Both the position numbers and the translations under genes were made by a program. 64,000 nucleotides of DNA. Origin: Gamsiella multidivaricata. Its lineage: Eukaryota; Mortierellomycota; Mortierellomycetes; Mortierellales; Mortierellaceae. The notes beneath the pieces are model-generated. The model made no database searches. It saw nothing but the letters and a program-made list of their open reading frames with translations, and had not been told where the DNA came from. The DNA is taken from assembly GCF_025024155.1 (NCBI RefSeq), contig NW_026251734.1:248001-312000 (forward strand), written 5' to 3'. This document shows, piece by piece, positions 1-47,471 of this stretch (position 1 is the first letter of the stretch; every line of letters begins with the position of its first letter).

Positions 1-639
1 AAACGTCATTTCAATCGGCGAAGGCAACATGCACAAGATACCGTAGGCCCATTGCTATACAATACGCTTTCCTTCAAAAATTTTTTTTTTCGTGTTTGGA
101 AAATTAGTCCTGTTGGTTCGTTTTTACTTTTGGTTACTCAAAGATGCCAGCACGCAGTGCAAGCCTGAAAAAAATTATCGGCTGCATTCATGTTCATAAA
201 GACAAAAAGAACGGTATTGTGGTAAAGAGACGTCCGTATCATTTCGTCCGCATTACTAAAGACATTCATTGCACATGGCCGTTGTGTTTGCGACAAAGAA
301 ATAAGATCTTAACGATCGCGCGGCAGAAAAAAAAAATTCAGGCAGAAAAGGGGCCTGACCATGGACTGATGAATGCTGGATAGCCATGGGAGACAACAAA
401 AGGGTTCATGTATCCGTACCCACCACCCAGCCAGAGGATCTGTAAAGACGCGTGCCTGGCCATGAACTGATGGACACCGGATGACTATGATTACGAACAA
501 TAGGCTATATAGAAAGGAGTCAACAATATCTAGAGCACGCACTTTACCGTTAAACGCGTTGGTATTTCGCATAATTGAAAGCTAAGCTTTTTTTTTTTTT
601 CTTTTTTTTCTTCAAGTGTCATCCGCAGATCCCCACGAA
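1..639. other. no gene seen, AT-rich flank
   Basis: I see no supportable coding region. The open frames are short, lack family resemblance and end in T-rich runs (a T tract at about 588-609). It may hold the 5' flank of the fragment that follows. Confidence 0.5.
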
Positions 640-1125
640 ATGCTAGCTCCAATGCCTCGACCTCTGGGCGTCCAGCCGAATCATCATCATCCAAATCACC
701 GAGGCCCTCACGCTCGTCTCCACGCCCGCCTTTGAGTTCGTCCCTGGTTCACCAAGCGGCATGTCAGGGAAGGAACTTGAGGATGAACGGGGTGAGTAAA
801 CATATGTACGATCAATCCCGCTTTTGGACTCTTCGATCCAGCAGGATGGTTGAAAATATACTTTTCTCTGCGAGCCGTAAAGAGAATGCTCCAGTCACGT
901 ACGCCATGTGCATACTGTTGCATCAGTGGCAGAGTCAAGGAGCCAAGGCAGTGGTGAAGTAGGAATGCATAGAAATGAATAATGCATATTAGTCATTCTA
1001 GAGCTGATAGCACATGTCTTCTTCAGGTATATCGATCCAACACCTTCAGATCTCTTGCACCTCGAGAATTCGAAGTACGACTATAACAAAATGGGCATGA
1101 CATATGAGGGTGCCCCCTTCCCCCC
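640..1125 (+). pseudogene. possible decayed gene or gene fragment
   Basis: Three open stretches on the plus strand read like protein but do not join into a gene. The first (about 673-788) reads through ITEALTLVSTPAFEFVPG. The second (about 846-957) reads KENAPVTYAMCILLHQWQSQ and can be spliced at a GT near 958 to an AG at 1025, which continues in frame as YIDPTPSDLLHLENSKYDYN. The frame is lost soon after 1120 and I see no start codon context or terminal exon. I do not recognise the family. It could be a fragment of an expanded effector-like family or simply chance open frames. Confidence 0.3.
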
Positions 1126-36957: not shown

Positions 36958-38300
36958 ATCATTTAACCGCAGCATTCATTTAAGCTAGATCTGGATTTGA
37001 AATCCGGTGGATCTGCATGATAAATTACATCTGGCCACTGTACAAAAAGCGGCCTTCTAGATCTGCCGCCGCAAGTTCATTACTTGGCGTGTGTGTGTGT
37101 ATGTATGTGTGTGTAAACCGTTTCGTCTTGCTCCATTGCCACCTTCCCTTTGTGCTGGCTGAGGCTGAGAGGAGTCTTCCAAGTCTCTTGTCTGAAGGCG
37201 TTCCTCTTCCATAGCTGACCCACTATTCTGGGATTTGCCCTCAGTCAGCGTGGATCAAATGTGCATGTGTTAGGAGTACTACCTGTATAAGTGGACCCGT
37301 TGGAGTTCTAGGAAGTATACTTATTTCACAATCCCACATGGATCACTCATAGCAACGCCATTTATGTTGCCTAGGGTGGTTACTGTGCTTGATGTATTCT
37401 CAGATCCCTCCAGCCTACTTATCTCAGTATGTGTAAGACCCATAGCAAAATCATTACAACAAGGGGCCATTAATGCAACACCAGCGGCTTACAACTCATT
37501 CTATTTATGGCATGACCGTGTGTGAATGAGAGAATGGCGTGAATGGGCGAAGTCTTCAGCCTGGGAAGTCGCTCATAGGGCATGTTCCTTCATTCTTCGA
37601 TGCGCCGAAGAGCCCATCGCCACTAAATTTGACAACCAGTCTGAGGCCCTTTTTCGAGGCCAAGCCGGGCTTCTGATTGGGTTGGGTGCGCACGGACGTG
37701 TTGGCAGAGCTGGCGCCATGGTTTAATAACATCCTGCAGGAAGAGAGGAATCGACACTTGCTTCATCATCTTTACCTTTGCTTGCAAGCCTCGTAAATAG
37801 CCGGCGTTCCGCGTGATATCGTGATATGGCCCTAGTGTGGTTGCAGCAAAAGAAATGTGAGGGATGAGCCCTCTTATGTCCACTGCATAAAAAAGCTGTT
37901 GCTTCATGTAGGGCACAAGGCATCATCGGTATAGACTATAGACTATCCGATGCATCTCGACGTAGTGGTTCTGTTTTCTTCTTCTGCCCAGTCAAACCTG
38001 TGTCTTTCATTTCTTCGTTCTCTCGCCTCTCCCTCTTTCTTAATTTCCCCACACTCTTCACTGCTGCACAGTGCTATACCCTTTTCCCACCGACTCCCCT
38101 GCCCCCTCCAAAAACGTCTGCAGCGCCTTTCTAAAACACATTCCTCTCTCTCTCACTCTCCGCTTCCTTGTCTCCTGTCTCTTTGCCACTTTGTTTCTGT
38201 ATCTCTTTCTTTCTCCGCCCTCTATCCGTCACACTGCATCGGTGAACATATCCGTCGAGTTCTCACACATCCCCCTTCCCCCTTCCCCCCTCCCTCAAGG
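36958..38300. other. intergenic region, leader of the ankyrin gene
   Basis: No gene is firmly seen. A minus-strand frame at 37623-37916 (97 codons) has no family resemblance. From about 37980 the plus strand is C/T-rich up to the ATG at 38301. Confidence 0.5.
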
Positions 38301-41300
38301 ATGACCGCTGAGACCCTTCAGGACAACAGAAAGCCTTACCCGGCCCACAGCGAGGGTATCGATCCCACCCTGGGCTCACCCTCCAATTGCTCAGGGAATC
38401 ATCTCTGCGAGAGCGCAACCGAACAGCACCACCACCACCAGGACCTGTCCTCGTGTGCTGTGGCCTCAAACACAACCACAGCGACAACCACCGATACATC
38501 GGCAGCAGCACCAGTCCCCATCTCCACAGCAATCGCAGCAAAGTGCCCTACTACGGATCTGCGGCCATTGAAAGCCACAGCAACCGACCATTCTTTTGAC
38601 ACTACTGCCTTGGCCTCATCCAGCTCTCCTGCTTCGTCTCGCTCAAGCACGCTCGTCTTCGAGGAACTGTCATCGCAACGCACACCTGTATCATCTACCG
38701 CTTCAACGCCTTTTTCAACAAATTCAACGTCGTCATTTTCATTCCCTACGTCGCTATTGGACAATGTGCAACTGCAAGACCCAACCTGCAATAATTCGTC
38801 TATCAGCATCATCACTTCAACATCTGTAGTTTCCACGGCAGCACCAAACACAGCATCGGCAACAACGCCAGCACCAGCAGAGAGCATGGACTGTGCAGCA
38901 GCAATGAGCACAAATCATATTTTAGATCTCCCGACAGAGATCCTGGAGGAAATCATTTGCCGCCTGATCTCTCCTCGGAACTTTGTAAGAAGCTGTCGTC
39001 AGATCTACCGTCTTTCGAGGTCACCATCTTTGCGTGCAAAGTACCTTTGGCTGTTGCATGGCCCAGATCAGGTACTGACCCGCAAGGTGATTGAGCTCCA
39101 CAGGCTGACGAGCTCTATTCTCAGTTCTCCTGTGGTCATGCTCCTGATGGCCATGGGGGCCCCCTTTCGAGATTCAGAGGAGTTTATGTAAGTTGGGCAA
39201 CTCTGGTTGAAACTTTGAACTTTAAGGGACGAAAGAAATAATGACAGAAGATGGGGGGATAGCTGTTTCCTTGGCTGCTTGCTTGTTCAACATGTCCTTT
39301 CCCCCTTGATTCCCGTTGAACGAAAAACTAGTGGTTCTGTGTCTGTCCATCCACTTCTTTTGCTCTTCTTGCATCACCATGGATGAGGGGAAGGGGGGGG
39401 GGAAATAACAAGGGTAAATAGGAAGTGTAGAGGACCAATCTGCATCGCTGTAGGCTACGTCCTTGAATTCTGTTGGGCGGAGATCAAGGGGGCGATAACG
39501 AATTTTTTTCAAACAACAGCGGCATGAAACATACCGCTCGGAGGAGTAGCTCGACTTGGACGCATACACACACCACATACACACGCACATCACATTGTGC
39601 CTTGAAAGCTGTGTGACAAAGAAGAAAAAAGTTTGACCATTGCCAACCAACGCAGCAGCCATGCGTTCGCAGTGGGCCTCAAAAAGAAGGTTATCGGCGA
39701 ATCACAATACAATCGCACATCATCGCACAAACGCTCAGAACAGACCATGGGCTGCATGTGCTTTTTATATTATTCTACTTGTCACTCTACCATGGATGAT
39801 CCTACTTGGGATGGGTGTTGATGCATGGACCTCTCTTTAGACAAGTGATTGTCCGCATTAGTGCGCTGCAAGACAAAGCGACCAAATCATGGTCGGCATC
39901 TTTTGTACTAGACCACTGACACTTCCCCTCTTTCTTTCAACTCATCCAGCTTTCGATGGGCCTGTTCCAAGGGACACATGGACGTAGTCTCCCAACTGCT
40001 AAAAAGCGAGCCGAGGATTGATCTTCGATTTAGATCTGATTGGTTTCTGCGGGAGGCGGCAAAGAACGGTCGGCAAAGTAAACACCAGATGCGAACTCCT
40101 ACAGCGTTGCCGTTTTTTTTTTGTACTCTATTTCTTCTACGTGCATAAATATGCAGCTGAGCTGACTGCAATGAATTCCTTCTTCGAACACTCTAGACGT
40201 TGTCTCGCTCCTCCTTCGACAACCAGACTATGTGCCCTCAGAGAGCGGACTCAACAAGGCATTCGAGGCTGCATACGAACAATCTTTCTGCGACACCGTC
40301 AGAGCGCTCCTCGACTATGCAGAGAATCGTGGTGCACAGCTGGAGCAGGGACCGTCAGCTTTTCAAAGTGTCGTCCCGTCTACCAGGAGGGCGAAGCGGG
40401 TCATGGCGGGTGGACTCTACATCCAAAAGGACGCCGACAAAGCTCTACGCTATGCTGTGCGCGGAAACGATCTGGAGATGGTAAAGCTACTGATGGACTA
40501 TGAGGCGGACGTACATGCGTTTAGCGAGGAGGCGATCTTAGTTGCTGCACACAAGGGCCATGTCGAGATACTGAAGCTGTTGATCCAAGCTGGTGCTGAC
40601 ATCGAGACCAAGGCGGGAGCACCATTGCGACAGGCTGCAGAATATGGACATGCAGAGGCAGTGAAAGTTCTGTGTAGCAGCGGGGCTGATACAATGTGGG
40701 GAGGATGCAGCGCTCTGCGAACGGCAGCATCTCAAGGTAGGCAAACGAAATATCACTGCGTGTTAATCACCATAGGGCCCTTTGAATATCAGTCCAAGAG
40801 CGTCAATGTTCATAATCCCCTCACTCTTCTCCTTTGGTAACTAGGTTTCGACAACATTATTGCAATATTACTTGAGCATGGCGCAAATGTCAACATTCAC
40901 GAGGGAACACCTCTTCAATTAGCGTGTAAGCATGGACATGAGGCTGCTGTACGGGTACTACTCAAATACGGAGCCAACCATCGTCTGGATGATGGAGCCG
41001 CATACAAATTGGCGCTCGAGGCCAACCACGAAGGCATCAAGGCGCTTCTGATTCAGGCAGAGACTGCAATGCGAGCCAAGGAGAGAGAACTAGACAGGAT
41101 ACTTCAGCAACAGGGGCCCATGATGATGACCGGACAGCAGCCATGGTATTCCTCGCATGCGCGAGCGTTCTCAGAGACCCTCAATAACGCTACGTTCCAC
41201 CCTGGAACTCAAACGCCAGCGCCTTCAGCTGCCATGTCTACATCGTCTTCAGCCTCGAATCTGTCAGGGATGATACCGGGCAGCGGATCTATCTTTGCAG

Positions 41301-41479
41301 GAGCAGGTGTTGGTGCCAGTACTGATGGACTATCGAGAGGACACAAGCGGTTCTACAGCCAGATGTCAAATTATCCGCTTTCGGTTGCAGACTTGTTTAG
41401 ATCGGGATCTGTGTGTGGACTCGTTGCCCTGGATGATGAGATTCGGTCAAGGCAAAGAAGCGAGAGTAATCGGCTGTAG
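38301..41479 (+). CDS. F-box and ankyrin-repeat protein
   Basis: Exons 38301-39187, 39950-40077, 40197-40736 and 40845-41479 sum to 2190 nt, or 729 aa. The start at 38301 was chosen because the open frame upstream lies in a C/T-rich leader. Residues 1-200 are Thr/Ser/Ala-rich and likely disordered. An F-box reads DLPTEILEEIICRLISPRNF, then a short linker. At least seven ankyrin units follow, for example ACSKGHMDVVSQLLKS, AVRGNDLEMVKLLMDY, ACKHGHEAAVRVLLKYGAN and the ANHEGIKALLIQ unit. A Gly/Ser-rich tail ends the protein. The F-box suggests an SCF substrate adaptor; a substrate cannot be told. The exon 2 splice was fixed by its ankyrin reading frame. Confidence 0.8.
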
Positions 41480-43297: not shown

Positions 43298-45577
43298 ATG
43301 GTAGTAACACGAACCAGACGCCATACAACCCCAGCATCAGCTTCTCCTGCTGCACAACATACACGACCTAATCGACGAACGAGGACACGTGCCATCACTG
43401 CGGCCTCATCAAAGAAAAACAACAACAATAATAACGATGCACTGGAAGCGGACAAAGAGAATCATGACAACAGCAGAAGCACAACCACACATCCAATGCA
43501 GTCGGATGCGAAAGCCAATGCATCACTCAATAAGGATGCGCCGCTGACGACACGAGGTACAAGGATTATGCGCGATACGCGGCGAACCCCTGCTACGACA
43601 ACGACAGCAAGCAATAACCCGACAGAAGACGAGGAGGTCGAAAGACCCCGCCGAGAGCGTGTTGAAGCTGTGGTCATTGTCGAACACCCTCGGAAACTCA
43701 GGTCATGGGAAACACTGGATAATAATACTCGTGCGCACACAGATGCGAAAATTCCCATAGATCTTCACGATGACTATGCGCTCAACTTCGAGACCAGTAT
43801 GACAACGGATGCCTTTACAACCGATATGCTCAAGGATTCGTCGCCAAAGCTGCGGAAACACAACGAGGCGAATGTGGAGAGCGGGATTTCAGGCAAGAGC
43901 GACGATCACAATTCGATGTTGTTCTCTCGACTCTCGCTCTCTCCGCCTCCCCCATTACTCTTCGATAACGATGACGAGGAGGATTACTATGGCGAAGGAA
44001 ACAGTCCGTGGAGGATGAACTTTGATTCCCGACAATCGAGCTCATGCATGAACGACCAGTCCCGGCGCAGAACTATTGATTTTACGCTTTTAGAGCTGGA
44101 ACCGGACGAACAGCAGCACAAGGACCGTCTTGAGTCTTCTTCTTCAGCAGCACCAGCAACAGCAGCATTTTTGAGCTGGGATAAGGACGGGGCGATGGAC
44201 GATTACGATGAGGATGATGATCCGTTCGGATTCTCAAAGGTCGAACGGAAGCTGCAGAGGACCAAGAGCATGCGGCCGAAACTATTGGCTATCAACGAGG
44301 TCAATGCCCGCAGCCCAGCTGTCTCTGCCTCCGCCATGGCCGTCGACACCACAACCAGCAGAATCAGCAGTCCAAGCACCAGCATCGACAGGAGCACGAT
44401 TGATGAAAATGGACTTACCACTCGTGAGGCTGTTCTGGAGAGGGTTGCGAACAGGAGGAGAGGCGACGTCAAGGGCAAAGGGAAGATTGTGGAGCAGGAT
44501 CCGCTTTCGAGTGATAGTCATGATGCGGACAGGAGCCGGAGTGAGGCCGCAGAATTTTCGGCAGAGGATATACAGAGAGCGGTCCAGCTGAGCAGGGGCT
44601 TGGATGTGGCCAATGGCGAAGGGTGTTCGAGTGGTTTAACAGCATCATCAACATCGCAGTCTGGTGCTCGTACGACGGCTACCGAAGGCGATAATACAAT
44701 TCTGCAGGAAACAATCGCCACAGACCAGGACGACGAAGAAACTTTGACTAGGAGCACGAGGCGTATATCTCGGCTGTATGGAAAGGCGGCCGCCGTCGGT
44801 GTTCAGAATGCCCAAACCTTGGCGGACACGACTGCTTCGACCGCACACAGCAACGCACATACCCCAGTTCTTGATGACAATACCTACAGCCACGATATCG
44901 AGATGGAAGCTGTCACCGATATTACCTCTACACCACCAAGGAAGACTCGTTCAGACGACTCTACGAATTCGGACCTTTCAATTCTTTCGAGCGATTTCTC
45001 ACCAATAATTCTTGATCGTACACCTACAAGGAAACCGGAAGCCGGAATGCCAATGTCGCTGGAATATCCGTCCACAGGTCCGGGCAAAGGACGCTCGCGG
45101 CCAAAGAAGAAGTACATGTTGACGGAACAACTTGAGGCGATGCTACCACGACGTAGGAGGAAGCTGAATATGATGAGCAAGAACAGGAACAACAATGTGG
45201 TGGATTTGGGCAGCAGTAGCGAGGAAGACGAGAATGACTCGGATGGATCAATTGGATCGGCTTCGGAGGACGAGAGAGAGTCTTTGACGCGGTTACGACG
45301 CGGACGTACAGCGACACATTCGGTGGACACGAGGCGTAGAGCAAGAACTTTGGGCAAGAAACGATCTGCGCCTGGTGAACTCTCTAAGCCAGTATCCAAG
45401 CGCGGCGGTGTCAAGGGTTCTGCATCTGTGAGCGACAAGGACAAGCGCAAGGACAAGGGCAAGGGCAAGGCAGAGGACAGGAGCGGCTGGTCTGCAGAAC
45501 AATGGGCAGCGCAACAAGAGCGGATCAAATACTTTCAGCAGGTCGACGATTTTGATCTGGAGGTTGAGCCTATCTAG
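43298..45577 (+). CDS. disordered nuclear protein, sororin-like candidate
   Basis: Intronless, 759 aa. The first 40 residues are basic and Arg-rich. A KEN box lies at residues 53-55 (nt 43454-43462), a typical APC/C-Cdh1 degron. An FGF motif is at 310-312 in DDDPFGFSKVERK; in human sororin the FGF motif is used to displace WAPL from PDS5. The C-terminus reads WAAQQERIKYFQQVDDFDLE then VEPI. It resembles the sororin C-terminal domain, which ends with a conserved W-A-A, a helix, and F-D-L-x-V-E. The three features occur in the same order as in sororin. The rest is charged and low-complexity. The protein is longer than human sororin (252 aa), but long forms such as fly Dalmatian exist. A lineage-specific disordered protein with these motifs by chance is the main alternative. 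Intron-free structure and a 3' end only 139 bases from OMA1 are also notable. Confidence 0.6.
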   Translation: MVVTRTRRHTTPASASPAAQHTRPNRRTRTRAITAASSKKNNNNNNDALEADKENHDNSRSTTTHPMQSDAKANASLNKDAPLTTRGTRIMRDTRRTPATTTTASNNPTEDEEVERPRRERVEAVVIVEHPRKLRSWETLDNNTRAHTDAKIPIDLHDDYALNFETSMTTDAFTTDMLKDSSPKLRKHNEANVESGISGKSDDHNSMLFSRLSLSPPPPLLFDNDDEEDYYGEGNSPWRMNFDSRQSSSCMNDQSRRRTIDFTLLELEPDEQQHKDRLESSSSAAPATAAFLSWDKDGAMDDYDEDDDPFGFSKVERKLQRTKSMRPKLLAINEVNARSPAVSASAMAVDTTTSRISSPSTSIDRSTIDENGLTTREAVLERVANRRRGDVKGKGKIVEQDPLSSDSHDADRSRSEAAEFSAEDIQRAVQLSRGLDVANGEGCSSGLTASSTSQSGARTTATEGDNTILQETIATDQDDEETLTRSTRRISRLYGKAAAVGVQNAQTLADTTASTAHSNAHTPVLDDNTYSHDIEMEAVTDITSTPPRKTRSDDSTNSDLSILSSDFSPIILDRTPTRKPEAGMPMSLEYPSTGPGKGRSRPKKKYMLTEQLEAMLPRRRRKLNMMSKNRNNNVVDLGSSSEEDENDSDGSIGSASEDERESLTRLRRGRTATHSVDTRRRARTLGKKRSAPGELSKPVSKRGGVKGSASVSDKDKRKDKGKGKAEDRSGWSAEQWAAQQERIKYFQQVDDFDLEVEPI

Positions 45578-45716: not shown

Positions 45717-47471
45717 CTACCAGGATGCCAGCTTGGACTTGTTGAACATGTCCGCCCAGGAGTTGGTTGTTGCACAGTCCGACTTGTTGTACGTATCCAG
45801 AGCCTCCGGCATCCACGCCTCCATTTTGCGGACACGGTCCTTGCTCGCTGGATGGGTGTTCAAGAAAGCAAGCGAAGGTCCCCTCTCCTGTGAAGCCATG
45901 CGTTCCCACATATGAGTGCTCTCCCGGGGATCAAAGCATGCCTGTGCCATGAGCTGCAGTCCGATCTGATCTGCTTCTGTCTCGCACTTCCGACTGAATG
46001 GCAGCTATATCAAAGGGGTAATGTAGGGGTGAAAAAGTACGCATAGTGTTAGCGGATTGATAATACGACGATACAAATTGGTCTAGATCGAAAATCGGAA
46101 GCTGAGAGCGAGAGATTTCATTTACCATCATGCCGAGATCCATCATAATACGCTGTATTCCCCAGGACGGATCAAAGACGAGGGCAACAATGACTCCGAT
46201 AAACATGGCAATCTTTGTGAAGCTCAGTTTTTCTGCCGAATGACGTGCCAGCTGATGCGCAATCTCGTGTCCCAGCACCGTCGCCAGCCCGTTCTCGTTC
46301 TCTGCGATTGGCAGAATCCTATTATTGCGTTACAAGTCGAAGCGAAAGCAACAAAGGATTTGAGTATTAATATTTGATGCCGCAGCGAGAAGAGAGAGAG
46401 GGGGGGGGGGGGGGTCATTTATCGAGAAAAAGGCGCCGAGACTTGACGACGTACCCTGTAAAGACAAAGACCTTTCCTCCTGGCAACACAAACGCGTTCT
46501 TTTCATCGCTCTGAATCACATGGAACTCCCAGTCAAGATCTAATCGCGGCGATGATGAATTCGAGGACGAACAGAGCAAGAGAAAAAAAAACCATCAGTC
46601 CAAGATAACTGTAAAAGAAAACGTATTTACTAGATTTACTAGTGTCGTAATCTGCGTCTTACTCTCCATTCCTGCAGCCTTGATGATCCTTGACGCGACG
46701 CGTTTTACAAATATCGTGTATGGATGATTCGGCGGCAAAATTTTGTTTCCGAACTACGACATTCCATATTCACAAAGAAAACGCCTGTTAGCAAGGTTCA
46801 AACCTTCTATGATGACGATTACGGAAACATCTCTTCAGTGCGATGCAGTGCAGTTTACCTGGTGCATGACTTGATTATACGCCTGTTTAGCCATCATCTC
46901 CTCCTGCTTCGGGGACACATCCATGAATCGACGTCGACCCGTCACAGGTACCCTATCAAACCAACAGCCAACATGCGATCAGCAGCCAGAACCTAAGTAG
47001 ATCTCATCCGGACGCCATTGTCGGATCCGTGTCCCTCGAATCAAATCACACTTACGTCTCCAGATGGGTCAAATAATACCCTCCTCCTCCCACAACAATA
47101 ACCCCACCTAGGACCTGATACCGCCTATCCTGCAAAATCGGCAGCCCGCTTCCTCTCGAGCTCGGCCCCTGTTGTCCGAACCGTTTATACTGCGGTCGAA
47201 GAATGAGCTTCTCAAGCGGATTCGCCACTGAAGAAGACGGTCGTGGCGGTTGAGGGATTAGATCTCCCCAAGAAGATGTCGGTGGTCTGTTGCGCAGCCC
47301 TGGTGGTGAGGCGTGAAGGCCGCGTGCCAGGAGGAATGAGGCCGGTGGTGGTGAGGTTGGTTGCAGCGACGTTGCTGAGAGGAACCCTGAACTGGGACGA
47401 CAGAGCTGACTAGTCCTTTGTCGGGCGACTCTTGCAAGGAACGCGCTTGCTCTTGTTACTGTGGCTGTCAT
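45717..47471 (-). CDS. OMA1: mitochondrial metalloendopeptidase Oma1
   Basis: Inner-membrane M48 protease that degrades misfolded proteins and responds to membrane stress. The start at 47471 begins MTATVTRASAFLARVARQRT, a good presequence; an in-frame ATG further up (47570) lies in a leader. Exons 47471-47056, 46952-46859, 46753-46663, about 46538-46456 and then two more down to 45717 were followed. One TM segment (QVLGGVIVVGGGGYYLTH) is near residue 130. The catalytic HEIAHQLARHSAEK (HExxH) lies in the fifth exon. The third zinc ligand is in the last exon: RKCETEADQIGLQLMAQACF. The family signature DWEFHVIQSDEKNAFVLPGG is also present. Length and domains agree with fungal Oma1. Confidence 0.93.

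Follow-up and report, generated by a model that had tools for sequence, protein, structure and literature searches.

A gene in the window, that is, the whole 64,000-nucleotide stretch of DNA that was analyzed, probably encodes the sororin of a Mortierella-type fungus, as judged from its sequence. Sororin, a largely unstructured protein, contributes to keeping copied chromosomes joined until the cell divides. We regard this as the best reading because the C-terminal sororin box and the FGF motif both rank in the family's top three windows for conservation, because a C-terminal helix predicted with confidence has the box at its end, and because matches to the cohesin partners of sororin are found in the genome. 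The protein probably extends an already known family, as fungal sororins as such have been published.

The sole match to the sororin-like gene in its own genome (37.5 Mb, E ≤0.001) was the gene itself (C100:291298-293574), indicating a single-copy gene. Of the 14 homologues found among 5.8 billion proteins, 12 carry organism names, all of which belong to Mortierella or related genera. Five taxa were checked (Entomortierella, Dissophora, Modicella, Haplosporangium, and Benniella), and they belong to the Mortierellaceae, Mortierellomycota. The family alignment contains 15 sequences, with the window protein as P0001; the N-terminal part is missing from P0006 and P0010, and this region has gaps in P0008, P0009, and P0011. 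A profile of the whole family (15 sequences, E ≤10) recovered the identical 15 proteins and no others, and the tail of P0002, used as a query, returned four proteins including P0002 itself, all of which were previously in the family set. The homologue, profile, and tail searches required shared exact words, and the homologue and profile searches scored only the candidates with the most shared words (7992 in the profile search), so the absence of the gene outside Mortierella-type fungi is not established by them. No match to the sororin-like protein was found among solved structures. The features of the gene and its product are collected in Table 1.

Table 1. Location of the sororin-like gene and of the features of its product in the window
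Feature	Residues	Position in window	Strand	Remark
Sororin-like gene		43298..45577	+	Single uninterrupted frame, ATG to TAG, 759 aa
KEN tripeptide	53-55	43454..43462	+	Not conserved, chance level
SRLSLSPPPP block	210-219	43925..43954	+	Fairly conserved; window 208-219 ranks 9 among non-overlapping windows
DPFGF motif	308-312 (FGF 310-312)	44219..44233	+	Present in 15/15
UIM-like helix EDIQRAVQLS	423-432	44564..44593	+	Pattern in 15/15; Pfam UIM below cut-off
RLYGK	492-496	44771..44785	+	Resembles PDS5-interaction motif as defined in the text of PMC11148194
PEAGMP block	580-585	45035..45052	+	Conservation analysis
TEQLEAMLPRRR block	609-620	45122..45157	+	Joint second most conserved window, 0.922
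Basic (K/R-rich) region preceding box	661-726	45278..45475	+	Charge counts
Predicted C-terminal helix	733-750	45494..45547	+	AlphaFold2, mean pLDDT 88 (731-740) and 81 (741-750)
Sororin box RIKYFQQVDDFDLEVE	742-757	45521..45568	+	Alignment, Pfam, consensus and pattern tests

The surroundings of the gene were also inspected. Upstream on the same strand, two frames at 40175-41476 carry ankyrin repeats, and the stretch 37935-39185 (+) resembles an F-box weakly, with 16.8 bits where the cut-off is 24.3. The next gene downstream lies on the opposite strand (45931-46278) and matches the M48 peptidase family at 22.1 bits (cut-off 20.3); this frame contains M-L-G-H-E-I-A-H-Q and is part of the gene only. 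A run of 15 G follows the sororin-like gene at 46400-46414.

Close to its C-terminus the window protein carries WAAQQERIKYFQQVDDFDLEVE, followed by PI, and the box stops two residues short of the C-terminus in all 15 members. The box window (742-753) is the most conserved of the 748 twelve-residue windows, with a score of 0.944 against a median of 0.46. Among its hydrophobic positions, F746 and F752 are invariant (15/15) and position 749 is V or L in all members; D750 is also invariant. Their spacing places F746, V749, D750, and F752 on F299, V302, D303, and Y305 of S. pombe, whose mutants are described as not restoring growth and as having reduced protein levels (PMC11148194). The pattern F..[VILMA][DE].[FY][DE]L.[VILMA]E, which we loosened from the published animal consensus after the sequence had been seen, is present in 15/15 family members and in none of 30,000 shuffles, in agreement with the FDLxVE-type end claimed in the earlier note. 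We also compared the C-termini with the animal box consensus as we wrote it out from the text of PMC10656103. Of its 12 constrained positions, eight agree in 13/15 members, seven in the window protein, and nine in P0013, and human sororin agrees at 10. At the C-terminal end, shuffled sequences reached seven positions in 1/3000 cases and eight in 0/3000, whereas eight positions anywhere in the whole protein were reached in 6/3000. The consensus has three constrained positions in its first half (aromatic, hydrophobic, N), none of which agrees in any of the 15 members, and all matches fall within the last 12 residues.

The AlphaFold2 prediction from the 15-row alignment has a mean pLDDT of 40.3, with 640 of the 759 residues below 50. 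The C-terminal helix is its sole confident element, with the box at its end, and further helices were placed at residues 206-211, 372-387, 422-432, and 609-614. This agrees with the earlier claim of a C-terminal helix in an otherwise disordered protein. The W-A-A motif that had been described in this helix did not hold, since W736 occurs in only 3/15 members and the invariant tryptophan is W731. According to PMC10656103, the sororin box contains a short six-turn helix. Immediately ahead of the last 34 residues, a stretch of 60 is rich in positive charge in 15/15 members (K+R 11-21 versus D+E 2-7).

The FGF at residues 310-312, which had been noticed earlier from the sequence, is conserved and above chance. 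It occurs as DPFGFxK in all 15 members, whereas a shuffled protein contains FGF about 1.9% of the time, and the window 306-317, which includes DPFGF, is joint second of the 748 in conservation (0.922). The flanks of DPFGF are unlike the vertebrate FGF consensus. A second candidate docking site, R-x-Y-G-K/R, is present in 12/15 members against 2.5% of shuffled proteins; it is missing from P0014 and P0015, and P0012 is without the final K/R. In the 13 members having Y-G, it is located 163-204 residues after FGF. The YS[RK] motif was found in 0/15 members. According to the text of PMC11148194, the PDS5-interaction motif reads K/R-T/S-Y-S-R-K/L in human and R-T-Y-G-R-R in plant WAPL, and most fungal WAPLs have [M/hydrophobic]xxYG[K/R] as given in PMC10656103.

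The KEN box near the start of the protein fared differently from FGF and the C-terminus. A KEN tripeptide is indeed present at residues 53-55, but only 4/15 members contain KEN anywhere (residues 53, 350, 731, and 101 of P0001, P0005, P0007, and P0013, respectively), and the region of the window protein's KEN is comparable in only 10/15 rows. Shuffled sets contain it in a mean of 2.3/15 members, and 18% of them reach four. The proposed conservation of the three motifs among relatives thus applies to FGF and the C-terminus (15/15) and not to KEN. We rejected KEN as a degron because its frequency is at chance. In the published descriptions, a KEN box belongs to vertebrate and Drosophila sororins and is absent from those of S. 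pombe, A. thaliana, and Sordaria; the published fungal sororins compared here do not have it. Phosphorylation sites of the form [ST]P.[KR] occur 2.2 times per protein versus 1.3 times in shuffles, which is too weak to use.

Other blocks of the protein are conserved as well. The TEQLEAMLPRRR block equals the FGF motif in conservation and lies outside every Pfam match listed for the window protein. TEQLEALLPRRR is a conserved motif, and among the papers searched the letters LLPRRR occur in a single, unrelated one on lionfish venom. The pattern D-hydrophobic-x-x-A-hydrophobic-x-x-S is present in 15/15 members compared with 2.9% of shuffled proteins. Pfam UIM (PF02809) matches 4/15 members, and the best displayed score is 15.2 bits with a cut-off of 21; for this reason we call the motif UIM-like only. 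A literature search that covered few subscription journals and no bioRxiv preprints found no paper linking sororin to a ubiquitin interaction motif (UIM).

The profile evidence for sororin is located at the expected end of the protein and is weak. For the window protein, Sororin_C (PF25220) was the only family reported at E ≤10, with an E of 0.44 and 10.9 bits against a cut-off of 27.4; profile positions 11-24 aligned to residues 744-757 of 759. It was listed for 4/15 whole proteins (9.3-10.9 bits), and the other three matched at the equivalent place. When C-terminal 34-residue pieces of nine of the 15 members were searched, six matched Sororin_C alone (13.0-15.5 bits, E 0.016-0.1) and the remaining three had no Pfam match at all; human sororin scored 38.3 bits in the same search. 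When the genome was searched in six frames with Sororin_C, the sororin-like gene was not listed, and the only match was a 21-residue frame on another contig with 15.7 bits, which shows that Sororin_C scores near 15 bits arise by chance. Because the best scores (10.9 bits for a whole protein, 15.5 bits for a piece) are below 27.4, we do not claim membership of PF25220. The check with the C-terminal sororin HMM that the earlier note had proposed thus gave matches at the C-terminus that were always below the cut-off. Sororin_middle (PF09666) had no match in the genome or among the 15 members, and its genome search was also silent in control genomes and is therefore of little weight. Among the 9/15 members whose scores were displayed, P0001 and eight others, no Pfam domain passed its cut-off. 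A profile of the last 34 columns of the family missed human sororin, with -4.3 bits equaled by 4721/20,000 shuffles, and hhalign of the family tail against the same sequence gave a probability of 3.2% and a P of 0.014, with 9/300 shuffles as good. Several of the candidates in PMC11148194 are likewise stated to have had weak E-values (1 for S. pombe, 0.089 for Pyrenophora, and 0.04 for Arabidopsis), and its text describes filtering of the S. pombe and budding-yeast hits on position, hydrophobic pattern, and no other domains. The features used there for fungal candidates, namely C-terminal position, hydrophobic pattern (especially the phenylalanines), and no overlap with a known domain, are present in our protein.

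These scores bear on the explanation that the product is a disordered nuclear protein unrelated to sororin, such as a chromatin or transcription factor linked to ubiquitin, with an FDLxVE end and an FGF that look sororin-like by coincidence. Sororin_C stays under its cut-off wherever it is listed and has a stray 15.7-bit match elsewhere, the comparisons with human sororin are weak or fail, and in scans of whole proteins the UIM-like motif comes closer to its cut-off (15.2 against 21 bits) than the box does (10.9 against 27.4). However, the box and FGF were picked before the homologues were known and rank among the three most conserved windows, the box pattern is absent from all the shuffles, and the helix is predicted as expected. 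We therefore consider a coincidence quite improbable.

It is also unlikely that the gene encodes another cohesin- or PDS5-binding protein, which would have gained a sororin-like box and FGF independently and would use the same docking surfaces for a different job. Such an origin could account for a length three times that of human sororin (252 residues) and for FGF and Y-G sites that differ from the vertebrate arrangement in order and spacing. The conserved blocks beyond those in the published descriptions of sororins point in the same direction, and a precedent exists in A. thaliana Haspin, which is not a sororin but for which a sororin domain is noted in PMC11148194. On the other hand, the nine members displayed have no above-cut-off Pfam domain, the box lies two residues from the C-terminus in 15/15 members, the gene is single-copy, and the sororin of Sordaria is likewise long (701 aa, PMC12758814). 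We thus keep sororin as the preferred reading.

The genome offers the partners with which a sororin would work. Matches were found for PDS5 at C55, which contains RLYAPDAPYT and thereby the AP[D/E]AP loop as APDAP, for SCC3/STAG at C26, for an ESCO acetyltransferase domain at C174, and for a RAD21/REC8 N-terminus at both C49 and C125. SMC3 matched at C109, where two stretches of the human query aligned with 66% and 53% identity, and this locus carries IGLKKDEYSLDKK, the lysine pair that is acetylated in other species. WAPL matched at C167 over profile positions 2-39 of 344 with 35.4 bits, above the cut-off. The reading as sororin is supported by the box, FGF, helix, and partner matches. Of the earlier arguments, KEN and W-A-A do not hold and the surprise was overstated, and the link to the animal family is below the Pfam cut-off.

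Immediately upstream of the WAPL domain, in a different frame, lies a frame that begins MPPAPRKSTGSKTRRIYGRQRSFL after its stop and contains T-R-R-I-Y-G-R-Q-R-S-F-L. It is likely to be the first exon of WAPL. Its Y-G-R is like the plant and fungal WAPL motif, and its Y-x-x-x-R-S-F-L is like the second fungal WAPL motif as described in PMC10656103. The likely WAPL start (L014, minus strand, ~4424-4353) seems to join the two in one stretch, whereas in other fungi they are described as occurring apart (PMC10656103). When the WAPL start was aligned locally to the members, the best match fell on the Y-G site in 2/15 and beat chance in P0013 only (2/300 shuffles). Since this alignment is near chance in nearly all members, the comparison is limited to the written motif.

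By analogy with other sororins, the box would dock on cohesin, either at the SMC3-kleisin interface, as modelled with AlphaFold in PMC10656103, or on SCC3/SA. The FGF may bind the C-terminal trough of PDS5 or a cleft in the C-terminal domain of WAPL, as in other sororins, and the Y-G site may occupy the PDS5 APDAP loop in competition with WAPL, again as other sororins suggest. Together, the three sites would protect acetylated cohesin from being opened by WAPL once replication has taken place. Vertebrate YSR and FGF are described as too close together to reach both ends of PDS5 (PMC10656103). With a spacing of 163-204 residues, compared with at most ~15 in vertebrates, the FGF and Y-G sites of the present family could be filled simultaneously. 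A further and rather doubtful possibility is a long fungal sororin that combines the box with FGF and Y-G, spaced so that they could simultaneously clamp both ends of PDS5, or PDS5 and WAPL, and with a ubiquitin-binding helix. That helix could recruit sororin to ubiquitin-marked chromatin at replication forks.

If the protein is a sororin, an FGF-bearing sororin would exist in a fungal phylum beyond the ascomycetes, which fits an old origin of FGF in fungi and its loss in Sordaria. It would give cohesin biologists a long sororin in which conserved docking motifs stand out against disorder, and it would offer two conserved motifs, the UIM-like helix and TEQLEALLPRRR, for partner testing. The wide FGF/Y-G spacing would also make simultaneous versus exclusive binding of PDS5 and WAPL directly testable.

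Human sororin (252 residues) has the motif order KEN, YSR, FGF, and box. In the Mortierella family, FGF comes first and Y-G follows 163-204 residues later, with no conserved KEN and no match to Sororin_middle. The family has in common with vertebrate sororin (CDCA5) the FGF motif, the basic stretch, and a C-terminal box ending F-D/E-L-x-V-E. Vertebrate YSR and FGF are placed within ~15 residues of each other in PMC10656103.

Fungal sororin candidates are in print for S. pombe, Pezizomycotina, Lipomyces, and Yarrowia (PMC11148194) and for Sordaria (PMC12758814), so the surprise expressed earlier at a fungal sororin was too strong. No paper on sororin with Mucoromycota, Mortierella, or early-diverging fungi was found in the same kind of search, again with most subscription journals and bioRxiv outside it. 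S. pombe Sor1 (SPAC9E9.05), as described in PMC11148194, shares with our protein the C-terminal domain with F-x-x-V-D-x-aromatic, a putative FGF, a basic stretch before the domain, and the lack of a (conserved) KEN. It differs in length (313 residues versus 759) and was not among the matches of the homologue and profile searches. Its box motif is given with one phenylalanine (PMC11148194), whereas the Mortierella family has two, F746 and F752. The FGF motif is reported for vertebrates and as putative for S. pombe, and in the published descriptions it is absent from A. thaliana and Sordaria. Sordaria macrospora Sororin (SMAC4_08091, 701 aa) is described in PMC12758814 as long and mostly unstructured with a C-terminal box, like our protein, and as without FGF and KEN, whereas the Mortierella family carries FGF in 15/15 members.
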